This document shows positions 47,060 through 64,000 of a stretch of DNA of 64,000 nt, one piece after another. Each line of letters begins with the position of its first letter. Within the stretch, counting starts at the first letter, position 1. This stretch comes from Dysgonomonas sp. 520 (GTDB taxonomy: Bacteria; Bacteroidota; Bacteroidia; Bacteroidales; Dysgonomonadaceae): NCBI RefSeq assembly GCF_010501095.1, contig NZ_QVMP01000014.1, positions 1-64,000 on the forward strand, in the 5' to 3' direction. The notes below the pieces were generated by a model. That model saw only the letters and a program-made list of their open reading frames with translations. It was not told the DNA's origin and made no database searches. The translations under genes were made by a program, and so were the position numbers.

Positions 47060-48346
47060 ATGAATTATCAGGAAACAATAGAATACCTATACAATCGCCT
47101 GCCTGTTTATCAGAATGTGGGAGGAAGCGCATACAAAGAAGGATTGGACAACAGTCTGGCTCTGGATAAATATTTCAATTGTCCGCACAAGGAATACAAG
47201 ACCATTCACGTTGCCGGAACTAACGGAAAAGGCTCAACATCGCATCTTCTGGCGGCAATTTTGCAGCAATCGGGATATAGGGTAGGTCTTTACACTTCGC
47301 CCCATCTGGTAGATTTCAGGGAGCGGATACGCATAAACGGGGAAAAGATTTCGGAGCAATATGTCGTTGATTTTGTAGCCAATCATAAAGAGAACTTCGA
47401 GCCGATATACCCTTCGTTCTTCGAACTGACCATGACGATGGCTTTCCGCTATTTTGCTGATATGAAGGTCGATATAGCTATCGTTGAAGTTGGTTTGGGA
47501 GGCAGGTTAGACAGTACGAATATAATTACCCCCATGCTTTCGGTGATTACGAATATAAGTCTCGATCACACTCAGTTTCTGGGTGATACGCTTGAAAAAA
47601 TAGCAGGAGAAAAGGCAGGAATCATAAAGCCGCAAATCGCCGTCGTAATTGGAGAAGCTGAGGGAGAAGTCCGCAAGGTTTTTGAAGAAAAAGCTAAAAA
47701 GGAACATGCCCCAATCGTTTTTGCACAAGATAATAACCCGATTATTTCCACAGGGAAAGATACGGATGGTTCGTGGATATATCAAACCGAAAGATACCCC
47801 AACCTGAAAGGTGAACTTGGCGGACTGGCGCAGATAAAGAACACGGCAACCGTATTGTGTGCAATTCAAGAATTGCAAAAATCAGGTGTCAATATCGCTG
47901 ACTCTGCCGTTTATTCAGGGTTTTCCGAGGTGGTAGAGCTGACCGGCTTGATGGGCAGGTGGCAGATCATACAGCAAAATAACCCAAAAATAGTTTGCGA
48001 CACGGGGCATAATGTCGGCGGATTTGGATATATAACCGAGCAACTGGCATCGGAAAAATATGCTGCTTTACGAATCGTGCTTGGGATGGTGAATGATAAA
48101 GATATTTCAAAGGTGTTGGCTCTGTTGCCTAAAAATGCCGTTTACTACTTCACCCGTGCAGCCATACAGCGAGCATTGCCCGAAGTTGAATTGCAACAAC
48201 AAGCCGAAAAGTCAGGTCTGAAAGGAGAGGTCTATCCCACCGTAGAGACAGCTATAAAAGCGGCTTTGGATGATGCAAAACCAGAAGATCTGATCTTTAT
48301 TGGGGGGAGCAATTTTGTGGTGGCCGAGGCTCTGCCTTTATTTTAG
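47060..48346 (+). CDS. folC: Folylpolyglutamate / dihydrofolate synthase FolC
   Basis: A 428-residue Mur-ligase-like enzyme. The P-loop GTNGKGST (54-61) follows HVA, and SPHLVDFRERIRING, ELTMTMAFRYF, EVGLGGRLDSTN, ITNISLDHTQFLGDT, GEKAGIIK and CDTGHNVGG are family signatures. It adds glutamate to folate and, in bifunctional forms, makes dihydrofolate from dihydropteroate. The gene follows cls by 25 nt. Confidence 0.95.
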   Translation: MNYQETIEYLYNRLPVYQNVGGSAYKEGLDNSLALDKYFNCPHKEYKTIHVAGTNGKGSTSHLLAAILQQSGYRVGLYTSPHLVDFRERIRINGEKISEQYVVDFVANHKENFEPIYPSFFELTMTMAFRYFADMKVDIAIVEVGLGGRLDSTNIITPMLSVITNISLDHTQFLGDTLEKIAGEKAGIIKPQIAVVIGEAEGEVRKVFEEKAKKEHAPIVFAQDNNPIISTGKDTDGSWIYQTERYPNLKGELGGLAQIKNTATVLCAIQELQKSGVNIADSAVYSGFSEVVELTGLMGRWQIIQQNNPKIVCDTGHNVGGFGYITEQLASEKYAALRIVLGMVNDKDISKVLALLPKNAVYYFTRAAIQRALPEVELQQQAEKSGLKGEVYPTVETAIKAALDDAKPEDLIFIGGSNFVVAEALPLF

Positions 48347-48655
48347 GAATAATTATTGTTCAGATAATTCTTTTTCGATTTCGATTGATGTTTCCATTGA
48401 TTGATTTTCTAAACGAATCGAACAGCCGAAAAGGATTTTCTGATTAGGTATTAAGAAGCTCGGGAAGAGGGTGCAGAAGTTAAATTTTATATAACTGTCA
48501 CTAATATAGCAAATATTGCATATATTTGCGACGAAGATTGATAATTAGATACAAATTTATACAAACTGAGATAGTATCCTTATAGCTGGCTATCCATTTT
48601 CTCGAAAGAGTATTGCCACATATTGATAGTTTGTTAGCTATATATAATAGATAAT
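48347..48655. other. 309-nt gap between folC and AraC gene
   Basis: AT-rich, no gene seen. It includes a TATATTTG box at 48521, a partial ctgtcactaata string at 48495 resembling half of the palindrome found at 49855, and a gcaaata/tatttgc palindrome (48510-48530) overlapping the -7 box. The regulator may control its own synthesis here (inference). Confidence 0.5.
48521..48528 (+). promoter_or_regulatory. Candidate -7 box for the AraC gene
   Basis: TATATTTG fits TAnnTTTG, inside an inverted repeat gcaaata...tatttgc. It implies a leader of about 120 nt. No -33 TTTG at the expected distance. Confidence 0.4.
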
Positions 48656-49507
48656 ATGGATTATTTAAACGATAAAACCCAGAATAATTTTCATAATGAC
48701 GGAACTGAAAAATATTCAATCGAAACTGTTTCTGTGAAAAAAGGGCAGGTTTGGAAATTGAACCTTAAGGAAAGTCAGGTTGTCATTGTAAAAGAAGGGC
48801 AATTAAGTTGTTCTTTTGCGCATTTTGAAGATGAAATGGTTTGCACCGGTAATTTTTTCCTAGTACCTGCCAAATCCGATTTTATTGCAAAAATATTAGA
48901 AGATAGTACCTTTTTCACTATATCTATTGGTAATAAGTTGCACCTGTATAGCAATTTCTCGATAGAAAACCTCCGTAACGAAGATGATGAAAAAAGTAAA
49001 GATCCTGCATTTTTTGTTTTATCCCTCAATAAAATGATGACAGATTTTCTGCATCTGTTGGATATATATCTGCGTAATGGCATGAACAGCCAGGATTTGA
49101 TGGAAATAAAAACAACGGAATTTTTCTACATATTAAGTAATTTTTACGAGAAAAAAGACGTGCAGTCGTTTATGGAACTGTATTTGACCGACGACTTTCA
49201 TTTCCGTGAACAGATATACCTTTGTTTCCGAAAAGTAAGAACAGTGCAGCAGTTGGCCGAACAAACGCATTATAGCTACTCAGGTTTCAATAAGCGTTTC
49301 AAAAAGGTATTCGGAGTTTCGGCCTATTCGTGGATGCAAACACAACGGGCACAGATGATTCTTCAAGAATTGAGCACAACAAACAAGAGTCTGAAAGAAA
49401 TAAGTATAGATTACAGCTTTGTATCTTTGTCTCATTTCAATGGCTTTTGTCACAAAGAGTTAGGGTCTTCTCCTAGCGAAATCAGGAAAAAAAATCTTGT
49501 CGGATAA
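48656..49507 (+). CDS. AraC-family regulator of the surface-protein locus
   Basis: A 283-residue regulator. Residues 1-170 form a cupin-like sensor half (VWKLNLKESQVVIVKEGQ, FFLVPAKSDFIAKI) with a helical linker. Residues about 185-280 hold two helix-turn-helix motifs: TVQQLAEQTHYSYSGFNKRF and SLKEISIDYSFVSLSHFNGF, ending GSSPSEIRKK, the AraC/XylS signature. The regulator at 62298 is a clear paralogue. Both lie beside surface-protein genes and near copies of a GTCACTTA-type palindrome. The effector is unknown. Confidence 0.9.
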   Translation: MDYLNDKTQNNFHNDGTEKYSIETVSVKKGQVWKLNLKESQVVIVKEGQLSCSFAHFEDEMVCTGNFFLVPAKSDFIAKILEDSTFFTISIGNKLHLYSNFSIENLRNEDDEKSKDPAFFVLSLNKMMTDFLHLLDIYLRNGMNSQDLMEIKTTEFFYILSNFYEKKDVQSFMELYLTDDFHFREQIYLCFRKVRTVQQLAEQTHYSYSGFNKRFKKVFGVSAYSWMQTQRAQMILQELSTTNKSLKEISIDYSFVSLSHFNGFCHKELGSSPSEIRKKNLVG

Positions 49508-49815
49508 AACAGAATAAAAAACTCAACCCTTTGTCAGGGTATTCATTGCTGCCTTGTATAAACTTTTCGGGGCAGCCTCACTAACGATCTTATTCTTAAA
49601 ATTATTACAATTAGGGTATTAACAGAATTTCCGCAAAAGGGAGGGGATGTGAATTGGCCTCGATTTTACTCTTTCCACCAACATAAGGTGTATTCCTTAG
49701 TTTATGCCTCGCTTTTTTTAACACATGTATGCAAACGATATCAAAATGATACCGAGAGGATAAAAATATGGAAGTTCAGGACTAATATATGGAATCAGAC
49801 CAATATTTTTTAATT
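49508..49815. other. Gap between AraC gene and surface operon, left part
   Basis: No gene seen. A short hairpin gctgcc...ggcagc (49550-49577) lies about 45 nt after the AraC stop without a T-tract. The rest is AT-rich leader/promoter sequence up to the -7 box at 49816. Confidence 0.45.
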
Positions 49816-49823
49816 TACTTTTG
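49816..49823 (+). promoter_or_regulatory. Candidate -7 box for the surface operon
   Basis: TACTTTTG fits TAnnTTTG. It implies a leader of about 140 nt that contains the palindrome at 49855-49879. No clear -33 TTTG. Confidence 0.4.
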
Positions 49824-49854
49824 TCAAGTTGATTTGTATACGCAAAAAGACAAC

Positions 49855-49879
49855 ATCTGTCACCTAATAAGTGACAGAT
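49855..49879. promoter_or_regulatory. Palindrome with GTCACCTAATAAGTGAC core, copy 1
   Basis: Arms atctgtcac (49855-49863) and gtgacagat (49871-49879) with a 7-nt centre. The 17-bp core recurs at 62290 and 63374. It lies 94 nt before the start at 49973, in the predicted leader, with the AraC gene immediately upstream. It may be an operator or a leader hairpin; no T-tract follows, so it is not a standard terminator. Confidence 0.55.
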
Positions 49880-49972
49880 ATGTTAAAAGGCTTACGACTA
49901 AATGTGTTTTTTTAAACAACAGAAAATGACATTACAAAACAAACTAAACAACCTCAACAAAACTAAAAGATA

Positions 49973-50755
49973 ATGAACAAACAAGCAATATGGCGATTGC
50001 TGCCGATGTTTCTGATGGCTGCTTTCGCATTGAATTTATCGGGACAGGTATCTATTGGCTCCAGTGAACCACCTTCGCCGGCCAGCCTTCTCGAAATAAA
50101 AGACAGAGAAGCAACTGCACCCGTATCGGTTACTGACGCAAACAATGTAACAGCCGAAACAGGAGGTTTGATATTGTCGCGCGTACGGCTAGTTAACCTG
50201 AGAACGCTAGAGCCTTTCATCGCAACCACTGCCACCGAATGGAATGCTGCAAATATCAATAGAACCAAACGTAAACATGCCGGATTGATGGTTTATAATA
50301 TCTATGTCAGTCCATCTTCTGTTACGGATACGGACAAACAATTCGATCTGGGAATTTATGTTTGGGATGGGGAGAAGTGGAGCCAGACTGGTGTAGATTC
50401 GGAAAGCAAAGACAATAAGCGTTGGTTTTATATGCCGGCTTTCAATTTGCCCTTACCCAAGATAACAGGTAGCGGGCCGGATGAAACCTACGATATTTAT
50501 GGGGAATATGCCCGTCAGTTTACCCAATCGGGCAACGCAACATACCGCTCAAACAATGGTAGTTTGGCGCGCATACCATCACCTATAAGCAGTCGTTTGT
50601 ATGCGAAGACCGAACTTGACTATGCTGTTATCTATTATGACGATAGCATTGTTCGGGTAACCGGTATTGACAATAACGGCATTATGTCTTATAAGGTGTT
50701 GGATAACGATCCGGGACCCACCTCTTTCATGAACATTGTATTCATTGTAAAATAG
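49973..50755 (+). CDS. Secreted surface protein A of the AraC locus
   Basis: A 260-residue exported protein. Signal peptide ends NLSGQ, then VSIGSSEPPSPASLLEIKDRE, a variant of the VGIGTxxPxxxALLEI opening seen in many Bacteroidota surface proteins. It shares EPFIATTATEW, HAGLMVYN, IYVWDGEKW, YDIYGEYARQFT and LDYAVIYYDD with the gene at 51303, so the two are paralogues. No lipobox and no T9SS domain. The fold is beta-rich; function unknown, possibly a fibre or adhesion subunit (inference). First gene of a probable operon 49973-52058. Confidence 0.75.
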   Translation: MNKQAIWRLLPMFLMAAFALNLSGQVSIGSSEPPSPASLLEIKDREATAPVSVTDANNVTAETGGLILSRVRLVNLRTLEPFIATTATEWNAANINRTKRKHAGLMVYNIYVSPSSVTDTDKQFDLGIYVWDGEKWSQTGVDSESKDNKRWFYMPAFNLPLPKITGSGPDETYDIYGEYARQFTQSGNATYRSNNGSLARIPSPISSRLYAKTELDYAVIYYDDSIVRVTGIDNNGIMSYKVLDNDPGPTSFMNIVFIVK

Positions 50756-58757: not shown

Positions 58758-61079
58758 ATGATAAAAAAAGCTCTGTATATATTTCTGCTATGTTCCATCA
58801 TTTATTCGTGTGTTACTCCCAAAAACATGCCCGAAGGTCAATATCTATTGAAGAATGTTGATATCAAATCGGACGACAAGCGAATAGATGATGTGGAAAT
58901 GGAATCTTATCTCCGGCAATTGCCCAACTCAAGCCTTTCTTTTTTGGGAAGGATAAGGCTTGGCATATACAATATGGCGGGTCAGGATTCGAGCAAGTGG
59001 CTTACTCGGACAATACGAAAAATAGGTGAGGCGCCTGTTTATTATAGTCCCGGACTAACCAACATCTCGGCAAAGCAAATACAGAGACAACTATCCAACC
59101 AAGGCTTCTTAAACGCAGAAGTTGATACTGTTCTGAATGTAAAAGACAAAAATATATCTGTGACATATAACATCACTGCAAAGGAACCGTATACAATCCG
59201 AAAATATGAGCTGGATTCGGCTCAGATACCAAAGCAAATGATGCGGGTGTTGTCTATGTATAACCGTAGGAGGTCTTCGGTGCGTCCGGGAGAACTGTTC
59301 GATCAGGATAAACTGGAAGATGAAAGGGTGAGCTTGACATCACTATTTCGCAACATAGGCTATTATTCGTTTTCGAAGGAATATTTATATTACAAGGCAG
59401 ATACTACCTTGAATTCGAATCAGGTAGACCTGTATCTGTCTCTGTATCCTGAAAAAGATAGCTTGGCGTTTCGTAGGTATAATGTGAGAACCGTGACAAT
59501 AAAAAGCGGTTTTGACCCGATGAGCGAAGACAATAATGTGGTTTTTAGTCCTGAAAATACCGATACAACATCATACCGGGGAATGACCATAATAAAAGGT
59601 TCTAACAACTTCTTGCGCAACTCCACGCTCTACCGGAATACTTTATTGCGTCCGGGCAGGCGTTATTCCGATTGGTTGTATTCAAACACCTTCACTGCAT
59701 TTAATGGGATGAGTGCAGTGAAGCAAACAAATATAAACATAACCCCGTCGCCACCATTGCCTACCGATACTACAAAAATGCTGGATGTGAATATAACGTT
59801 GGCTCCGGCAAATGCTCACTGGACCCAGTTGAGCTTGGAAGGCACAAATTCGGCGGGCGACCTGGGAGTTGCCCCCAGTGTTTCGTATCAGCACCAAAAT
59901 CTATTTAATGGAGGGGAAATCCTCAGCCTGAAACTGAAAGGCGCATACGAGTTTGTAACAAAATCGAAGAATAGCGCAGCATTCAATAATTATTACGAAT
60001 ATGGTTTCGACATAGGTTTGTCGTTTCCTCAGTTTCTATTTCCATTTCTGAAAAAAAGCTGGCGTGAACAGCCGTCTTCAAGTACACAGTTCTCTGTCGG
60101 GTTGAATAATCAGCACCGCTCGGAATATATAAGGCAGTTTTTCAATGCCACCATTACATACAGATGGTCTACCATGCGCAACCGGTTGAGCCATTCGCTC
60201 GACTTCCTCGACATTAACTATGTTCGTATGCCTTGGATCTCGGATCAATTCAAGAATGACTATTTAAGCGATTCTGCCGCTAACTCCAATCCGATGCTGA
60301 AAGCTATGTATCAAGACCAGTTGATATCGCGTAGCGGGTATTCTCTGGTTTATAATTGGAATGACAGGTCGGGTAGGGTGGTGCGCAACAGTTATACCTT
60401 GCGTTTTGGGGCAGACATTGCCGGAGTGCTTCCCCGGCTTGTGTCTTTAATTCACAGTCAGAAGAAAAATGATTTGGGGCAACAAATGATTCTCGGAATC
60501 GCTTATGCCGAATATGTGAAAGGAGATGTGAGTTTTTCTCAGACACACACCTTCCGCAATCGTAATTCTCTGGCATACAGGGCAGCCATAGGGGTTGCTT
60601 CGCCTTATGGCAATTCGACGGTGTTGCCTTTCGAGAAGCGATATTTTGGAGGAGGCTCAAATAGTGTGAGAGGTTGGAGCACACGGCGTCTTGGTCCGGG
60701 TTCGTATAAGTCGAACAAACAGATGGACGATTTTGTGAATCAGACGGGAGATATAAAACTCGATCTGAATCTGGAATACCGGGCAAAGGCTTCGGATTTT
60801 ATCGAATTTGCAGGTTTTGTTGATGCCGGAAATATATGGACTATCCGTAATTACGAATCGCAACCGGGAGGGCAGTTCAAGTTCTCCGAATTTTGGCGGG
60901 AAATAGCTATGTCTTATGGGTTGGGGATCAGGTTCGACCTCAGCTTCTTGTTGTTAAGGCTCGACTTCGGGATGAAGGCTTACGATCCGGAGAGGGACAC
61001 GAACGACCGTTGGGTTATTTACCGTCCAAACTTCGGACGCGATTTTGCCTGGCACTTTGCTATCGGTTATCCATTCTAA
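58758..61079 (+). CDS. tamL: TamL, lipoprotein Omp85-family translocation protein
   Basis: A 773-residue outer-membrane protein. The signal peptide ends at IIYSC (lipobox, Cys18). POTRA-like repeats follow (YLLKNVDIKSDDKRID, ISAKQIQRQLSNQGFLNAEVDTV, YTIRKYELDSAQIP). From about 380 to the end it is a beta-barrel of the D15/BamA family with YFGGGSNSVRGWSTRRLGPGSY (RGW motif) and the C-terminal WHFAIGYPF. The lipid-anchored BamA homologue of Bacteroidota is called TamL; it is thought to work with TamB in outer-membrane or surface-protein biogenesis. The TamB gene, often adjacent, is not in this window. Confidence 0.88.
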   Translation: MIKKALYIFLLCSIIYSCVTPKNMPEGQYLLKNVDIKSDDKRIDDVEMESYLRQLPNSSLSFLGRIRLGIYNMAGQDSSKWLTRTIRKIGEAPVYYSPGLTNISAKQIQRQLSNQGFLNAEVDTVLNVKDKNISVTYNITAKEPYTIRKYELDSAQIPKQMMRVLSMYNRRRSSVRPGELFDQDKLEDERVSLTSLFRNIGYYSFSKEYLYYKADTTLNSNQVDLYLSLYPEKDSLAFRRYNVRTVTIKSGFDPMSEDNNVVFSPENTDTTSYRGMTIIKGSNNFLRNSTLYRNTLLRPGRRYSDWLYSNTFTAFNGMSAVKQTNINITPSPPLPTDTTKMLDVNITLAPANAHWTQLSLEGTNSAGDLGVAPSVSYQHQNLFNGGEILSLKLKGAYEFVTKSKNSAAFNNYYEYGFDIGLSFPQFLFPFLKKSWREQPSSSTQFSVGLNNQHRSEYIRQFFNATITYRWSTMRNRLSHSLDFLDINYVRMPWISDQFKNDYLSDSAANSNPMLKAMYQDQLISRSGYSLVYNWNDRSGRVVRNSYTLRFGADIAGVLPRLVSLIHSQKKNDLGQQMILGIAYAEYVKGDVSFSQTHTFRNRNSLAYRAAIGVASPYGNSTVLPFEKRYFGGGSNSVRGWSTRRLGPGSYKSNKQMDDFVNQTGDIKLDLNLEYRAKASDFIEFAGFVDAGNIWTIRNYESQPGGQFKFSEFWREIAMSYGLGIRFDLSFLLLRLDFGMKAYDPERDTNDRWVIYRPNFGRDFAWHFAIGYPF

Positions 61080-62089: not shown

Positions 62090-62227
62090 ATACAAAGTTA
62101 TATTTTTAGGTAATTGTAAAATTTAATGATTTTTTTAGCGCATCAAAGTTAAGAATATTTCTTTAACTCATACAAACACCTAAAATAACTTACAATCTTT
62201 TTGTTTGCAATAAAAAGCAGGAAGAGA

Positions 62228-62258
62228 TTTGTTTACAATAATAATTTGCGTATATTTG
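62228..62258 (+). promoter_or_regulatory. Consensus Bacteroidota promoter pointing to the candidate sRNA
   Basis: TTTG (62228-62231), 19-bp spacer, TATATTTG (62251-62258): both boxes and the spacing match the TTTG-N19-21-TAnnTTTG consensus. No plus-strand gene follows; the first element downstream is the hairpin at 62281. This is the best promoter match seen in the window. Confidence 0.6.
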
Positions 62259-62263
62259 TACTT

Positions 62264-62320
62264 TAGTTACTTATAATGCTCAAAGCTCTGTCACTTACTA
62301 AGTGACGGAGCTTTGTTTTT
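62264..62320 (+). ncRNA. Candidate small RNA with 17-bp terminator hairpin
   Basis: Start estimated 5-6 nt after the -7 box at 62251-62258; the exact base is inference. The predicted RNA of about 57 nt has an AU-rich 5' part and a near-perfect hairpin (62281-62315: 17-bp arms, one G-U wobble, 1-nt centre) followed by a U-rich tail (gttttttatt). The 3' part overlaps the last 23 nt of the minus-strand AraC gene, so it would be antisense to that mRNA. Two other copies of the hairpin core lie near surface-protein genes. Confidence 0.4.
62281..62315. promoter_or_regulatory. Palindrome with GTCACTTACTAAGTGAC core, copy 2
   Basis: Arms of 17 bp (62281-62297 and 62299-62315) around a single centre base; one mismatch. 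On the plus strand it is followed by a T-tract, so it can be the terminator of the candidate sRNA. The same core is found at 49859 and 63374. Confidence 0.6.
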
Positions 62321-63134
62321 TATTGATATTTTCCAAACTCCTTTTCCGTCGGATTTCGGAGGGCGATTTCCCCAGATTTTTGTGGCAAAATTCATTGAAG
62401 TGAGACAAGCTACAGAATTTATTATCCGTCGAGATCTGTTTCAAGGTTTTGTCTGTGTGATAGATATCGTGATACACCATATTTGTCCTTTGCTTCTTGA
62501 GCCACGAATAGGCAGTTGTTCCGAAAACTTTTCTGAACTTTTTGTTAAATCCCGAATAACTGTAATTCGTTTTGTAGGCTAATTCTTTTATATTCTTTGT
62601 GTTATAAGATAATATTCTCACCCGTTCCGTAAAGAAGGAGTCGTTTGTTTGGTATGTACAGAAAAAATTGAAGAGTTGCTCCTCTGTATAAGATGCTTTG
62701 AGTATGTATATCAACTCTTTAACTTTAATTTCGGCGAGGAGGTTGTAATCTACATTCTTATCTCTGTAAGTCAGTAATGAATTTATGTAGGCATTCATTA
62801 TATGGTTGAAACACAAATGGCTTATTCCTTGTTTGTCAATACATTTCGATTCTTTTATCCTGAAGTTATTGTATAGGTGATTTTCATCGGAGATATCAAT
62901 CGATACTATTAAAGACTTGCTCAACGCTTCGGCTGATAAGCTATATCCGGCAGGCAAAAAGAATAATCCATCGACATAAAACTTTTCGTTTTTGTCTCTC
63001 GTAAAGAAGACTTTCAACTTGCCGCTTACGACTAATATAATCCTGCAATTGTCTTGTCTGGAAGTCCACAGTTTGCCTTTCTCTAATTCTTCGAACAAGA
63101 TGCCGGACCTCAGGTTTATGCTATCGAATTTCAT
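62298..63134 (-). CDS. AraC-family regulator, paralogue of 48656
   Basis: A 278-residue regulator with the same layout as the gene at 48656: cupin-like sensor half (KLWTSRQDNCRIILVVSG, FFLPAGYSLSAEAL), linker, and two helix-turn-helix motifs (NIKELAYKTNYSYSGFNKKF; TLKQISTDNKFCSLSHFNEF) ending GKSPSEIRRKR. The last codons overlap a GTCACTTA-type palindrome and a predicted sRNA on the other strand. The start codon lies 580 nt from the divergent surface gene at 63714, a typical regulator-target arrangement (inference). Confidence 0.88.
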   Translation of the reverse strand: MKFDSINLRSGILFEELEKGKLWTSRQDNCRIILVVSGKLKVFFTRDKNEKFYVDGLFFLPAGYSLSAEALSKSLIVSIDISDENHLYNNFRIKESKCIDKQGISHLCFNHIMNAYINSLLTYRDKNVDYNLLAEIKVKELIYILKASYTEEQLFNFFCTYQTNDSFFTERVRILSYNTKNIKELAYKTNYSYSGFNKKFRKVFGTTAYSWLKKQRTNMVYHDIYHTDKTLKQISTDNKFCSLSHFNEFCHKNLGKSPSEIRRKRSLENINKKQSSVT

Positions 63135-63535
63135 CTTTCTATTGTTGTCTAAGTGTTTAAGTATGTACGTGTTTAACGAATATTTAACAAAAAATAAAAA
63201 TGATACATTCTCTTTTTATCTGTAAATAGTTGTTTGTGAGTTGCTTATAATGGATGGCTATTTTGCTTTCACGGAGAAAGAACTATTTGTTAAACGAGAT
63301 GTCTGAAATTCTTATTTTCTAGTTCATATTCATCTATTAATCAAGTATATAACAATAGTTAAAATACCCACCCGTCACTTAGTAAGTGACGGGTACAAAA
63401 CAGTCAGACAATCAGGAGTTTAACGTTATTGTCGATTTTCAATCGGACTGAAACGAAAGTGAGGTAAACTATGATCAAAACGTTCTTTTTTCGACCTATT
63501 TTTTACTGCCGCGTCTCTTGCAGATGCCTTGACTT
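63135..63535. other. Divergent gap between AraC and surface gene, left part
   Basis: AT-rich, no gene seen. It contains the palindrome at 63370-63394. No TAnnTTTG box with proper spacing was found for the 63714 gene in this part. Confidence 0.45.
63370..63394. promoter_or_regulatory. Palindrome with GTCACTTAGTAAGTGAC core, copy 3
   Basis: Perfect 12-bp arms acccgtcactta / taagtgacgggt around one centre base. It lies 320 nt before the surface gene start and 236 nt before the AraC start. No T-tract follows on either strand, which favours an operator over a terminator. Confidence 0.6.
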
Positions 63536-63655
63536 CTCGGCGACCGACCTCACCCCGGCCCTCTCCAAGAGGAGAGGGAGCAAGCCCCTCCAAAAGAGCA
63601 GGGTTAGAGTGAGGTGTAGGGGTGGGGTTTTACTCCACCCGGAAAACGTCGAATA
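63536..63655. repeat. REP-like GC-rich palindromic element
   Basis: Three stems: ccctctcc/ggagaggg (63559-63566, 63571-63578), cctcac/gtgagg (63548-63553, 63609-63614) and gggtgg/ccaccc (63620-63625, 63635-63640). GC content is far above the flanks. The last 41 nt resemble 58645-58685. It lies in the leader or promoter region of the gene at 63714. Confidence 0.65.
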
Positions 63656-63713
63656 AGAACAACCGATTCATATTATTTATAAAAACAACACAACAAACAA
63701 CATTAAGAACTTA

Positions 63714-64000
63714 TGAAAAAGAGCAGTTTAATTTTATTCATTCTTTTAGCCGTTACGGCAATTAAAGCACAGGTGGGTGTGAATACGGAATCGCCACAAG
63801 GAGTATTTCACATTGATGCGAAAAAAAACACAAACGGGAATGTGAATGTGGCAGACGATGTCATCGTCAACAGCAGTGGGAATGTGGGTGTAGGGACGAA
63901 TGCGCCACAGACGAAGGTTGATATCCGATCTTCAACTGCAAAAGGCGGTTTTCGCCTGCAAGACGGAACACAATCGGTAGGTAAGGTTCTGATATCGGAT
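63714..64000 (+). CDS. Secreted surface protein, 3' end cut by window edge
   Basis: Starts MKKSSLILFILLAVTAIKAQ, then VGVNTESPQGVFHIDAKK and GVGTNAPQTKVDIRS, and FRLQDGTQSVGKVLISD at the edge. It is a paralogue of the gene at the left edge, and the signal-peptide DNA is nearly identical in both. Only the first 95 residues are visible. Function unknown. It lies divergent to the AraC gene at 62298 and downstream of a GTCACTTA-type palindrome. Confidence 0.8.

Follow-up and report, generated by a model that had tools for sequence, protein, structure and literature searches.

What does a promoter that runs straight into a hairpin do where a convergent AraC gene ends? This arrangement occurs at 62228–62320 of the 64,000-nt stretch of Dysgonomonas sp. 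520 DNA that was analysed (the window). It had originally been read as the candidate gene of a small RNA which could control the AraC gene. Our analysis leads to a different answer: the hairpin is very probably the left end of a switch which works by phase-variable DNA inversion.

Promoter and hairpin beside the AraC gene

The elements of the locus, with the roles that we assign to them, are as follows.

62228..62258, plus strand: outside promoter P1 (−33 TTTG, −7 TATATTTG), reading into the putative invertible segment
62281..62321, plus strand: terminator-like hairpin (16-bp stem) and T-tract, arising at the left recombination site while the segment has its present orientation
62287..62309, no strand: left recombination site (site 1), TCTGTCAC-TTACTAA-GTGACGGA
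62298..63134, minus strand: AraC-family regulator gene, cargo of the putative invertible segment (Pfam HTH_18 and HTH_AraC)
63371..63393, no strand: right recombination site (site 2), with the centre TTAGTAA, the reverse complement of the site 1 centre
63713..64000, plus strand: gene for a secreted protein of 243 aa (AQVGVNTESPQGVFHID family) next to the putative switch, continuing past the window end

Both the letters and the fold confirm that a promoter and then a hairpin are present at the 3′ end of the convergent AraC gene. P1 consists of TTTG at 62228–62231, 19 bases and TATATTTG at 62251–62258. The hairpin occupies 62281–62315 and is followed by six T (62316–62321). The region 62264–62325 folds with −24.9 kcal/mol into a stem of 16 bp, one of them G-U, with a loop of 3 nt (z = −6.6, with none of 200 shuffles folding equally well). 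The earlier count of 17 bp with one wobble has to be corrected by one, as the 17th pair cannot close. Because the promoter precedes a terminator-like hairpin, a short RNA of about 55 nt is a reasonable prediction. A scan of the 64,000-nt window against Rfam returned no family at gathering score.

Paired sites and the orientation of the AraC segments

The hairpin turned out to be one of two inverted sites of the form TCnGTCAC-N7-GTGACnGA which flank a segment of about 1.08 kb with the AraC gene inside. As had been noted, its core GTCACTTAnTAAGTGAC is found at two further places of the window, namely at 49859 with one mismatch and at 63374 exactly, where none would be expected by chance (100 shuffles, up to two mismatches). 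The regulator belongs to the AraC family as judged from its C-terminal HTH_18 domain match (4.9e-15). Within the own genome (G000 in our numbering; loci are labelled L and contigs C) we obtained 53 DNA matches to 62100–62500 and 46 protein matches to the AraC protein, itself included. The flanks of 45 of these 46 places were examined, one weak fragment on C67 being left out. At 39 of the 45 a GTCAC-N7-GTGAC site with at most one arm change lies at each segment end, the two sites being 1.05–1.19 kb apart; six places (L101, L106, L107, L111, L112 and L113) lack at least one of the two sites and were dropped. In the family-wide searches, which scored a part of the first candidates per genome (24 for AraC, 17 for the recombinase described below), there are at least 24 AraC matches at E ≤ 1e-30 in the own genome (43 in the own-genome search at the same threshold) and 0–3 in the other 100 genomes among the scored candidates. 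No site pair is present at 25 of the 28 AraC homologue loci in relatives.

The site arms TC[T/C]GTCACT and GTGAC[A/G]GA are near-invariant in both sites, with T/C or A/G at position 9, and the centre (−2 to +3) differs from locus to locus and agrees within 38–39 of the 39 loci. Altogether 17 distinct left-site centres occur, and in 38 of the 39 pairs the site 2 centre, read as its reverse complement, is identical to that of site 1. Shuffling the pairs 10,000 times gave 3.3 matches on average and 12 at most, a test which overstates independence as the 39 loci are paralogues. Outside of arms and centre the agreement within loci is close to that of the shuffles, apart from +9 and +15, where it is higher by about two standard deviations. 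A centre which is variable but matched is the picture to be expected if it serves as a strand-exchange overlap in which the partners must match. L103 (G000 C22:198151 and 199235) is the only cassette with non-matching centres. The P1-side site of L103 shares its centre with the neighbouring cassette L100, and this suggests exchange or duplication between the two cassettes.

A count over the whole genome gave 82 exact sites, against zero for a control pattern. The 39 pairs account for 76 of them, the two paired sites left over having one change. Six exact sites lie elsewhere: two at or near contig ends (C13 and C25), a single one next to an AraC remnant (C67), the solo site C5:49859 and the two of a 394-bp pair (C54). 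The C54 pair is concordant and has no AraC inside (L251:3695-4111); it is followed downstream by the gene of a secreted protein of 695 aa, by another gene and by one for AraC. Scanning both strands we found no TAnnTTTG inside this own 394-bp pair; the short site pairs of relatives contain it in seven of the eight tested. Contig C29 (L207:6800-6929) ends inside a recombination site, right behind P1. In viral contigs the site pattern yielded 45 stretches and no concordant pair, and none of the 21 named loci of the neighbour gene at 58758–61079 has a concordant pair.

The paralogues also show which part of P1 is retained. A −7 element of the relaxed form TAnn[TC][CT]TG stands at a near-fixed distance before the site in all 39 site-pair loci, and the strict TAnnTTTG, which is named as the Bacteroides −7 consensus (PMC4747536), is found on the left flank 38–40 bp ahead of the site in 36 of them; P1 of locus L070 carries TATACTTG. 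The −33 TTTG is, unlike the −7 element, not conserved. Of the promoter form TTTG-N19-TATATTTG put forward originally, which is present at this locus, only the −7 half is therefore kept in the family. The stretch from P1 to the hairpin is poorly conserved except for a few positions, namely just past the −7 element and at one T and one A farther downstream.

Past the site, at most 1 kb away, 37 of the 39 cassettes have the start of a gene with a signal-like start and the motif QVG[VI]NT (32 cassettes) or QVT[VI]G (5 cassettes); in L103 it is the second gene after the site. In the other two cassettes a QLVGINT protein is encoded (L100) or the contig end is reached (L099). The secreted proteins have a median identity of 50% (564 of 666 pairs alignable), and no pair exceeds 90% over most of its length. 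For the gene at 63713 no Pfam or NCBIfam family was found at E 0.01, and a search of solved structures with one secreted protein gave none at E 0.01.

P1 points at the AraC 3′ end in 37 of the 39 loci. L091 and L109 are flipped: here the −7 element, with TAnnTTTG on the right flank, is at the 5′ side of AraC, and the secreted-protein gene is at the 3′ side and co-directional with AraC. In L091 the P1 half-stem can pair over 8 bp with the half that is now 1.1 kb away compared with 3 bp with its present neighbour, as a flip would predict; in L109, where the site is mutated, there is no preference (4 versus 4). Both orientations are known in the own genome solely as 37 versus 2 paralogous loci of one assembly. 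In the relative G012, a Dysgonomonas whose site coordinates coincide with those in Dysgonomonas sp. 25, a 384-bp segment is found with 100% identity in opposite orientations at two contig ends (L214 on C5 and L220 on C7) beside the same 51-bp flank. In our view both forms were represented among the reads, although the contig ends call for caution. In a further relative, G011, the loci L213 and L219 share the order integrase, P1-like element and site, and their AraC genes point in opposite directions. Judged from these arrangements, DNA inversion of the AraC segments appears well supported.

A candidate recombinase

In relatives a tyrosine integrase of 365–434 aa adjoins such sites. Six integrases beside the relatives' sites all have the same best match among the 28 own PF00589 loci, namely C6:55267-56535 (44–62% identity, second-best at most 34%). 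This gene encodes a protein of 423 aa with Arm, SAM-like and Phage_integrase domains, and in the alignment Lys, His-x-x-Arg, His and Tyr are retained and the first Arg is shifted relative to XerD. An odd centre of 7 bp suits a tyrosine enzyme better than a serine enzyme.

A recombinase of the C6 type was found at E ≤ 1e-80 in 15 of 101 family genomes among the candidates scored. Eight genomes in which sites or pairs had been met independently of the recombinase (G000, G005, G011, G012, G017, G010, G030 and G035) are all within these 15. Concordant pairs with at most three arm changes are present at 10 of the 26 loci of C6-type recombinases compared with none of the 37 loci of other own recombinases. 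All ten pair-bearing loci are in relatives (G005, G010, G011, G012, G017, G086 and G090); in the recombinase-bearing genomes G014, G015, G021, G031 and G033 there is no concordant pair beside the gene. The own C6 recombinase has no pair within 1.5 kb, and the nearest cassette, L109, is about 5.7 kb off. C6:55267-56535 is likely a trans-acting invertase. We infer that this enzyme acts on the sites of this strain and serves all own cassettes, and that the segments flip here at an appreciable rate.

Two other groups of recombinases were considered. Tyrosine recombinases of about 195 aa (C5, C22 and C68) had been suspected by their size; they have no site pair at their loci and are not what adjoins the sites in relatives. 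For the serine recombinases (11 matches) no pairs were seen at the ten loci scanned.

Polarity of the proposed switch and other readings

At the window locus the stem extension is 9 bp in the present form versus 3 bp after flipping in silico, with 11 versus 8 T. Averaged over the loci, the present junction (left outer half with AraC 3′ half) has an extension of 8.0 bp, 9.5 T in 16 and −22.1 kcal/mol, compared with 3.8 bp, 5.9 T and −15.3 kcal/mol for the flipped junction (left outer half with AraC 5′ half); the flipped L091 and L109 enter these means as they stand. In 36 of the 39 loci the P1 half finds its better partner in the AraC 3′ half; two loci show equal pairing, and one, L104, pairs better in the opposite orientation. 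The promoter scan took in 120 bp ahead of site 1, the stretch from AraC to site 2 and the 130 bp beyond the latter. Between AraC and site 2 TAnnTTTG is rare (towards the secreted gene in 6 of 39 loci, towards AraC in 2 of 39), therefore P1 is the only recurring consensus promoter.

We propose the following mechanism. P1 sits outside the AraC segment, which a tyrosine recombinase, with G000:C6:55267-56535 as the best candidate, would invert in trans by strand exchange inside the 7-bp centre. The present orientation would be OFF: P1 meets the long hairpin and its T-tract, so that transcription would stop after about 55 nt, and AraC points at P1. Inversion would swap the hairpin halves, so that the stem is split, the T-tract removed and the terminator lost. 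The flipped orientation would then be ON, with P1 reading AraC and then the secreted-protein gene. As P1 would be blocked by the hairpin now and free after the flip, the predicted short RNA would therefore be the OFF product, as proposed for CwpV. What can be established from the sequence for this switch are the paired concerted sites, the occurrence of both orientations in the paralogous loci and in the assembly of a relative, the linkage of recombinase and site in relatives and the terminator logic.

The second AraC locus of the window bears on the polarity. It is the single-site locus L106 with the following elements.

48521..48528, plus strand: P1-like −7 element ahead of the second AraC
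48656..49507, plus strand: second AraC paralogue in the window
49816..49823, plus strand: P1-like −7 element TACTTTTG, 43 bp before the solo site
49856..49878, no strand: solo recombination site
49973..50755, plus strand: secreted-protein gene of the second locus

No partner of the solo site was found at 47600–48700, where the best stretch agrees in 13 of 23 letters, and the whole locus (48521–50755) looks like a cassette which has lost its switch.

On balance we favour that the flipped orientation expresses the secreted protein in an operon from P1. The same inversion could also have the opposite polarity, a reading that overlaps with ours and that we regard as possible, if clearly less probable. 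A promoter which depends on AraC and lies between its gene and site 2 would then drive the secreted gene in the present orientation. Included in this reading is that flipping would let P1 supply AraC for action in trans at other loci. The sequence ahead of site 2 offers some ground for it. The motif GTTT[ACT][ACT]C, which was picked after viewing the sequences, is present in all 39 loci (L069 and the other 38), reading forward in the 240 bp ahead of site 2, compared with an expectation of 0.22 of loci from mononucleotide shuffles, which keep single bases only. Two copies as direct repeats 11–13 bp apart are found in 16 of the 39 loci (expectation 0.002) and none such on the other strand, and a T/A block 20–47 bp before site 2 is moderately conserved. 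Possibly these GTTTnnC-type repeats are AraC boxes. There is, however, little sign of a consensus −7 for such a promoter: the six instances of TAnnTTTG in that direction all lie 204–239 bp before site 2, and within 130 bp after site 2 the motif is present in two of 39 loci (L093 and L094), there inside the gene. Two points make expression from P1 after the flip the likelier polarity in our judgement. P1 and the terminator are kept in nearly all loci, even though, as now oriented, P1 leads into no gene; and P1-type elements stand upstream of the secreted gene in L091, in L109 and in L106, the solo-site locus.

Many paralogues share DNA-binding regions and the box-like repeats, and so control across loci is conceivable. 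In a combinatorial scheme, which we consider doubtful, one trans-acting tyrosine invertase would flip 39 AraC genes, and the AraC proteins from few flipped loci would control the secreted-protein promoters of other loci, so that the inversions would select among about 39 secreted proteins.

Readings without inversion fare far worse. The original prediction held that the small RNA from P1 could control AraC by antisense pairing or, as its hairpin core recurs, could work in trans. The promoter and the hairpin are real and the short RNA is still predicted; for the function assigned to it we find no support, and we consider it very improbable. Antisense control would call for a conserved overlap with the target mRNA. 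Comparing reading frames alone, the site overlaps the AraC frame in just 16 of the 39 paralogous loci and does not do so in 23. No shared seed for an action in trans is visible because the promoter–hairpin stretch is poorly conserved across paralogues, and the recurrence of the core is accounted for by the recombination sites, all 82 exact copies of which could be placed. A promoter and hairpin at a gene end may thus be a recombination site and not a small RNA, which calls for caution with similar finds.

We give as little credence to the view that both palindromes are operators of the local AraC protein. Two near-palindromic sites do flank each AraC gene, and related AraC proteins often share centres. 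However, AraC proteins with 97.6% identical DNA-binding regions have the quite different centres TTGTAGA, TTGCACA and TTGGTAA, and therefore the centre does not follow the binding domain; it is matched within each locus except L103. Flipped copies would also not be expected of operators, nor would the short pairs which relatives carry beside recombinases without AraC inside. Slightly less probable still is an ordinary terminator between convergent genes of an expanded family without any recombination: a hairpin with a T-tract at a gene end would fit, but the same palindrome with a matched centre recurs across AraC in 38 of the 39 loci. Least probable of all is a kissing-loop switch in which the RNA loop of hairpin 1 pairs with a complementary loop in the secreted-gene leader, for although reverse-complement centres would likewise give complementary loops, the outer stem at site 2 is weak (mean extension 1.6 bp) and both the flipped loci and the recombinase linkage are left unexplained.

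The inversion switch can be compared with known systems. Bacteroidales invertons, going by the accessible part of PMC12118408, have GTTAC-N7-GTAAC sites with an adjacent tyrosine integrase (CCGTTACCTABVRAGTAAC in B. thetaiotaomicron, GTTACTTCTTAGGTAACGGA in B. xylanisolvens and GCTACTYRGNRAGTAGC in P. distasonis). They share with the AraC cassettes the 5-bp palindromic arms, 7 variable bases, inverted pairs and surface genes downstream; an integrase adjoins the site in some relatives, and the own candidate enzyme lies apart from the cassettes. The arms GTCAC/GTGAC are one base away from GTTAC/GTAAC, and inverted 5-N7-5 pairs with matching centres are found here in 38 of 39 cases. Since palindrome and integrase match this class (PMC12118408), the AraC switch would therefore be a variant of it. 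It differs in its cargo, a whole AraC gene instead of a promoter region of about 280–345 bp (PMC12118408), in its promoter, which lies outside and not inside the segment, and in the 39 cassettes with one candidate enzyme in one genome.

For CwpV of Clostridioides difficile, according to the text available from PMC2784873, the OFF transcript was proposed to end at an intrinsic terminator 60–70 nt from its start, which the ON form does not have. As in CwpV the promoter is outside of the invertible DNA and a terminator is predicted to form in OFF only, here by in-silico flip (36 of 39 loci). The CwpV inversion region is described as holding neither the promoter nor the cwpV reading frame (PMC2784873), whereas here a regulator gene is inside; and, unlike CwpV, the recombination site itself is the terminator stem. 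In Bacteroides fragilis the serine enzyme Mpi inverts at least 13 regions and the tyrosine enzyme Tsr19/BF2766 serves two, as far as the accessible parts of PMC12632263, PMC5903667 and PMC4747536 describe them. One enzyme for several distant loci governing surface products would be common to these and to our case; they invert promoters, whereas here 39 regulator-gene cassettes with a tyrosine-like site type are concerned.

Within the accessible text of the open-licence PMC papers listed by our searches we found no description of invertons which carry a whole regulator gene, have their promoter outside and reach tens of copies per genome. New compared with the known Bacteroidales promoter invertons would be that the regulator gene itself is flipped, that the site doubles as terminator stem and that there are 39 copies beside diverse secreted proteins. 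If the switch works as inferred, it would provide a large phase-variation repertoire for one genome with one enzyme, and a clean system for inversion, termination and regulator feedback.

In the relative G005 an AraC cassette (L208) adjoins a protein with the Mfa2 fimbria-anchor domain. The leader from site 2 to the secreted-protein gene measures 322 bp at the window locus and 622 bp in L084, and in the former a G+C-rich, repeat-like stretch is seen at 63500–63640.
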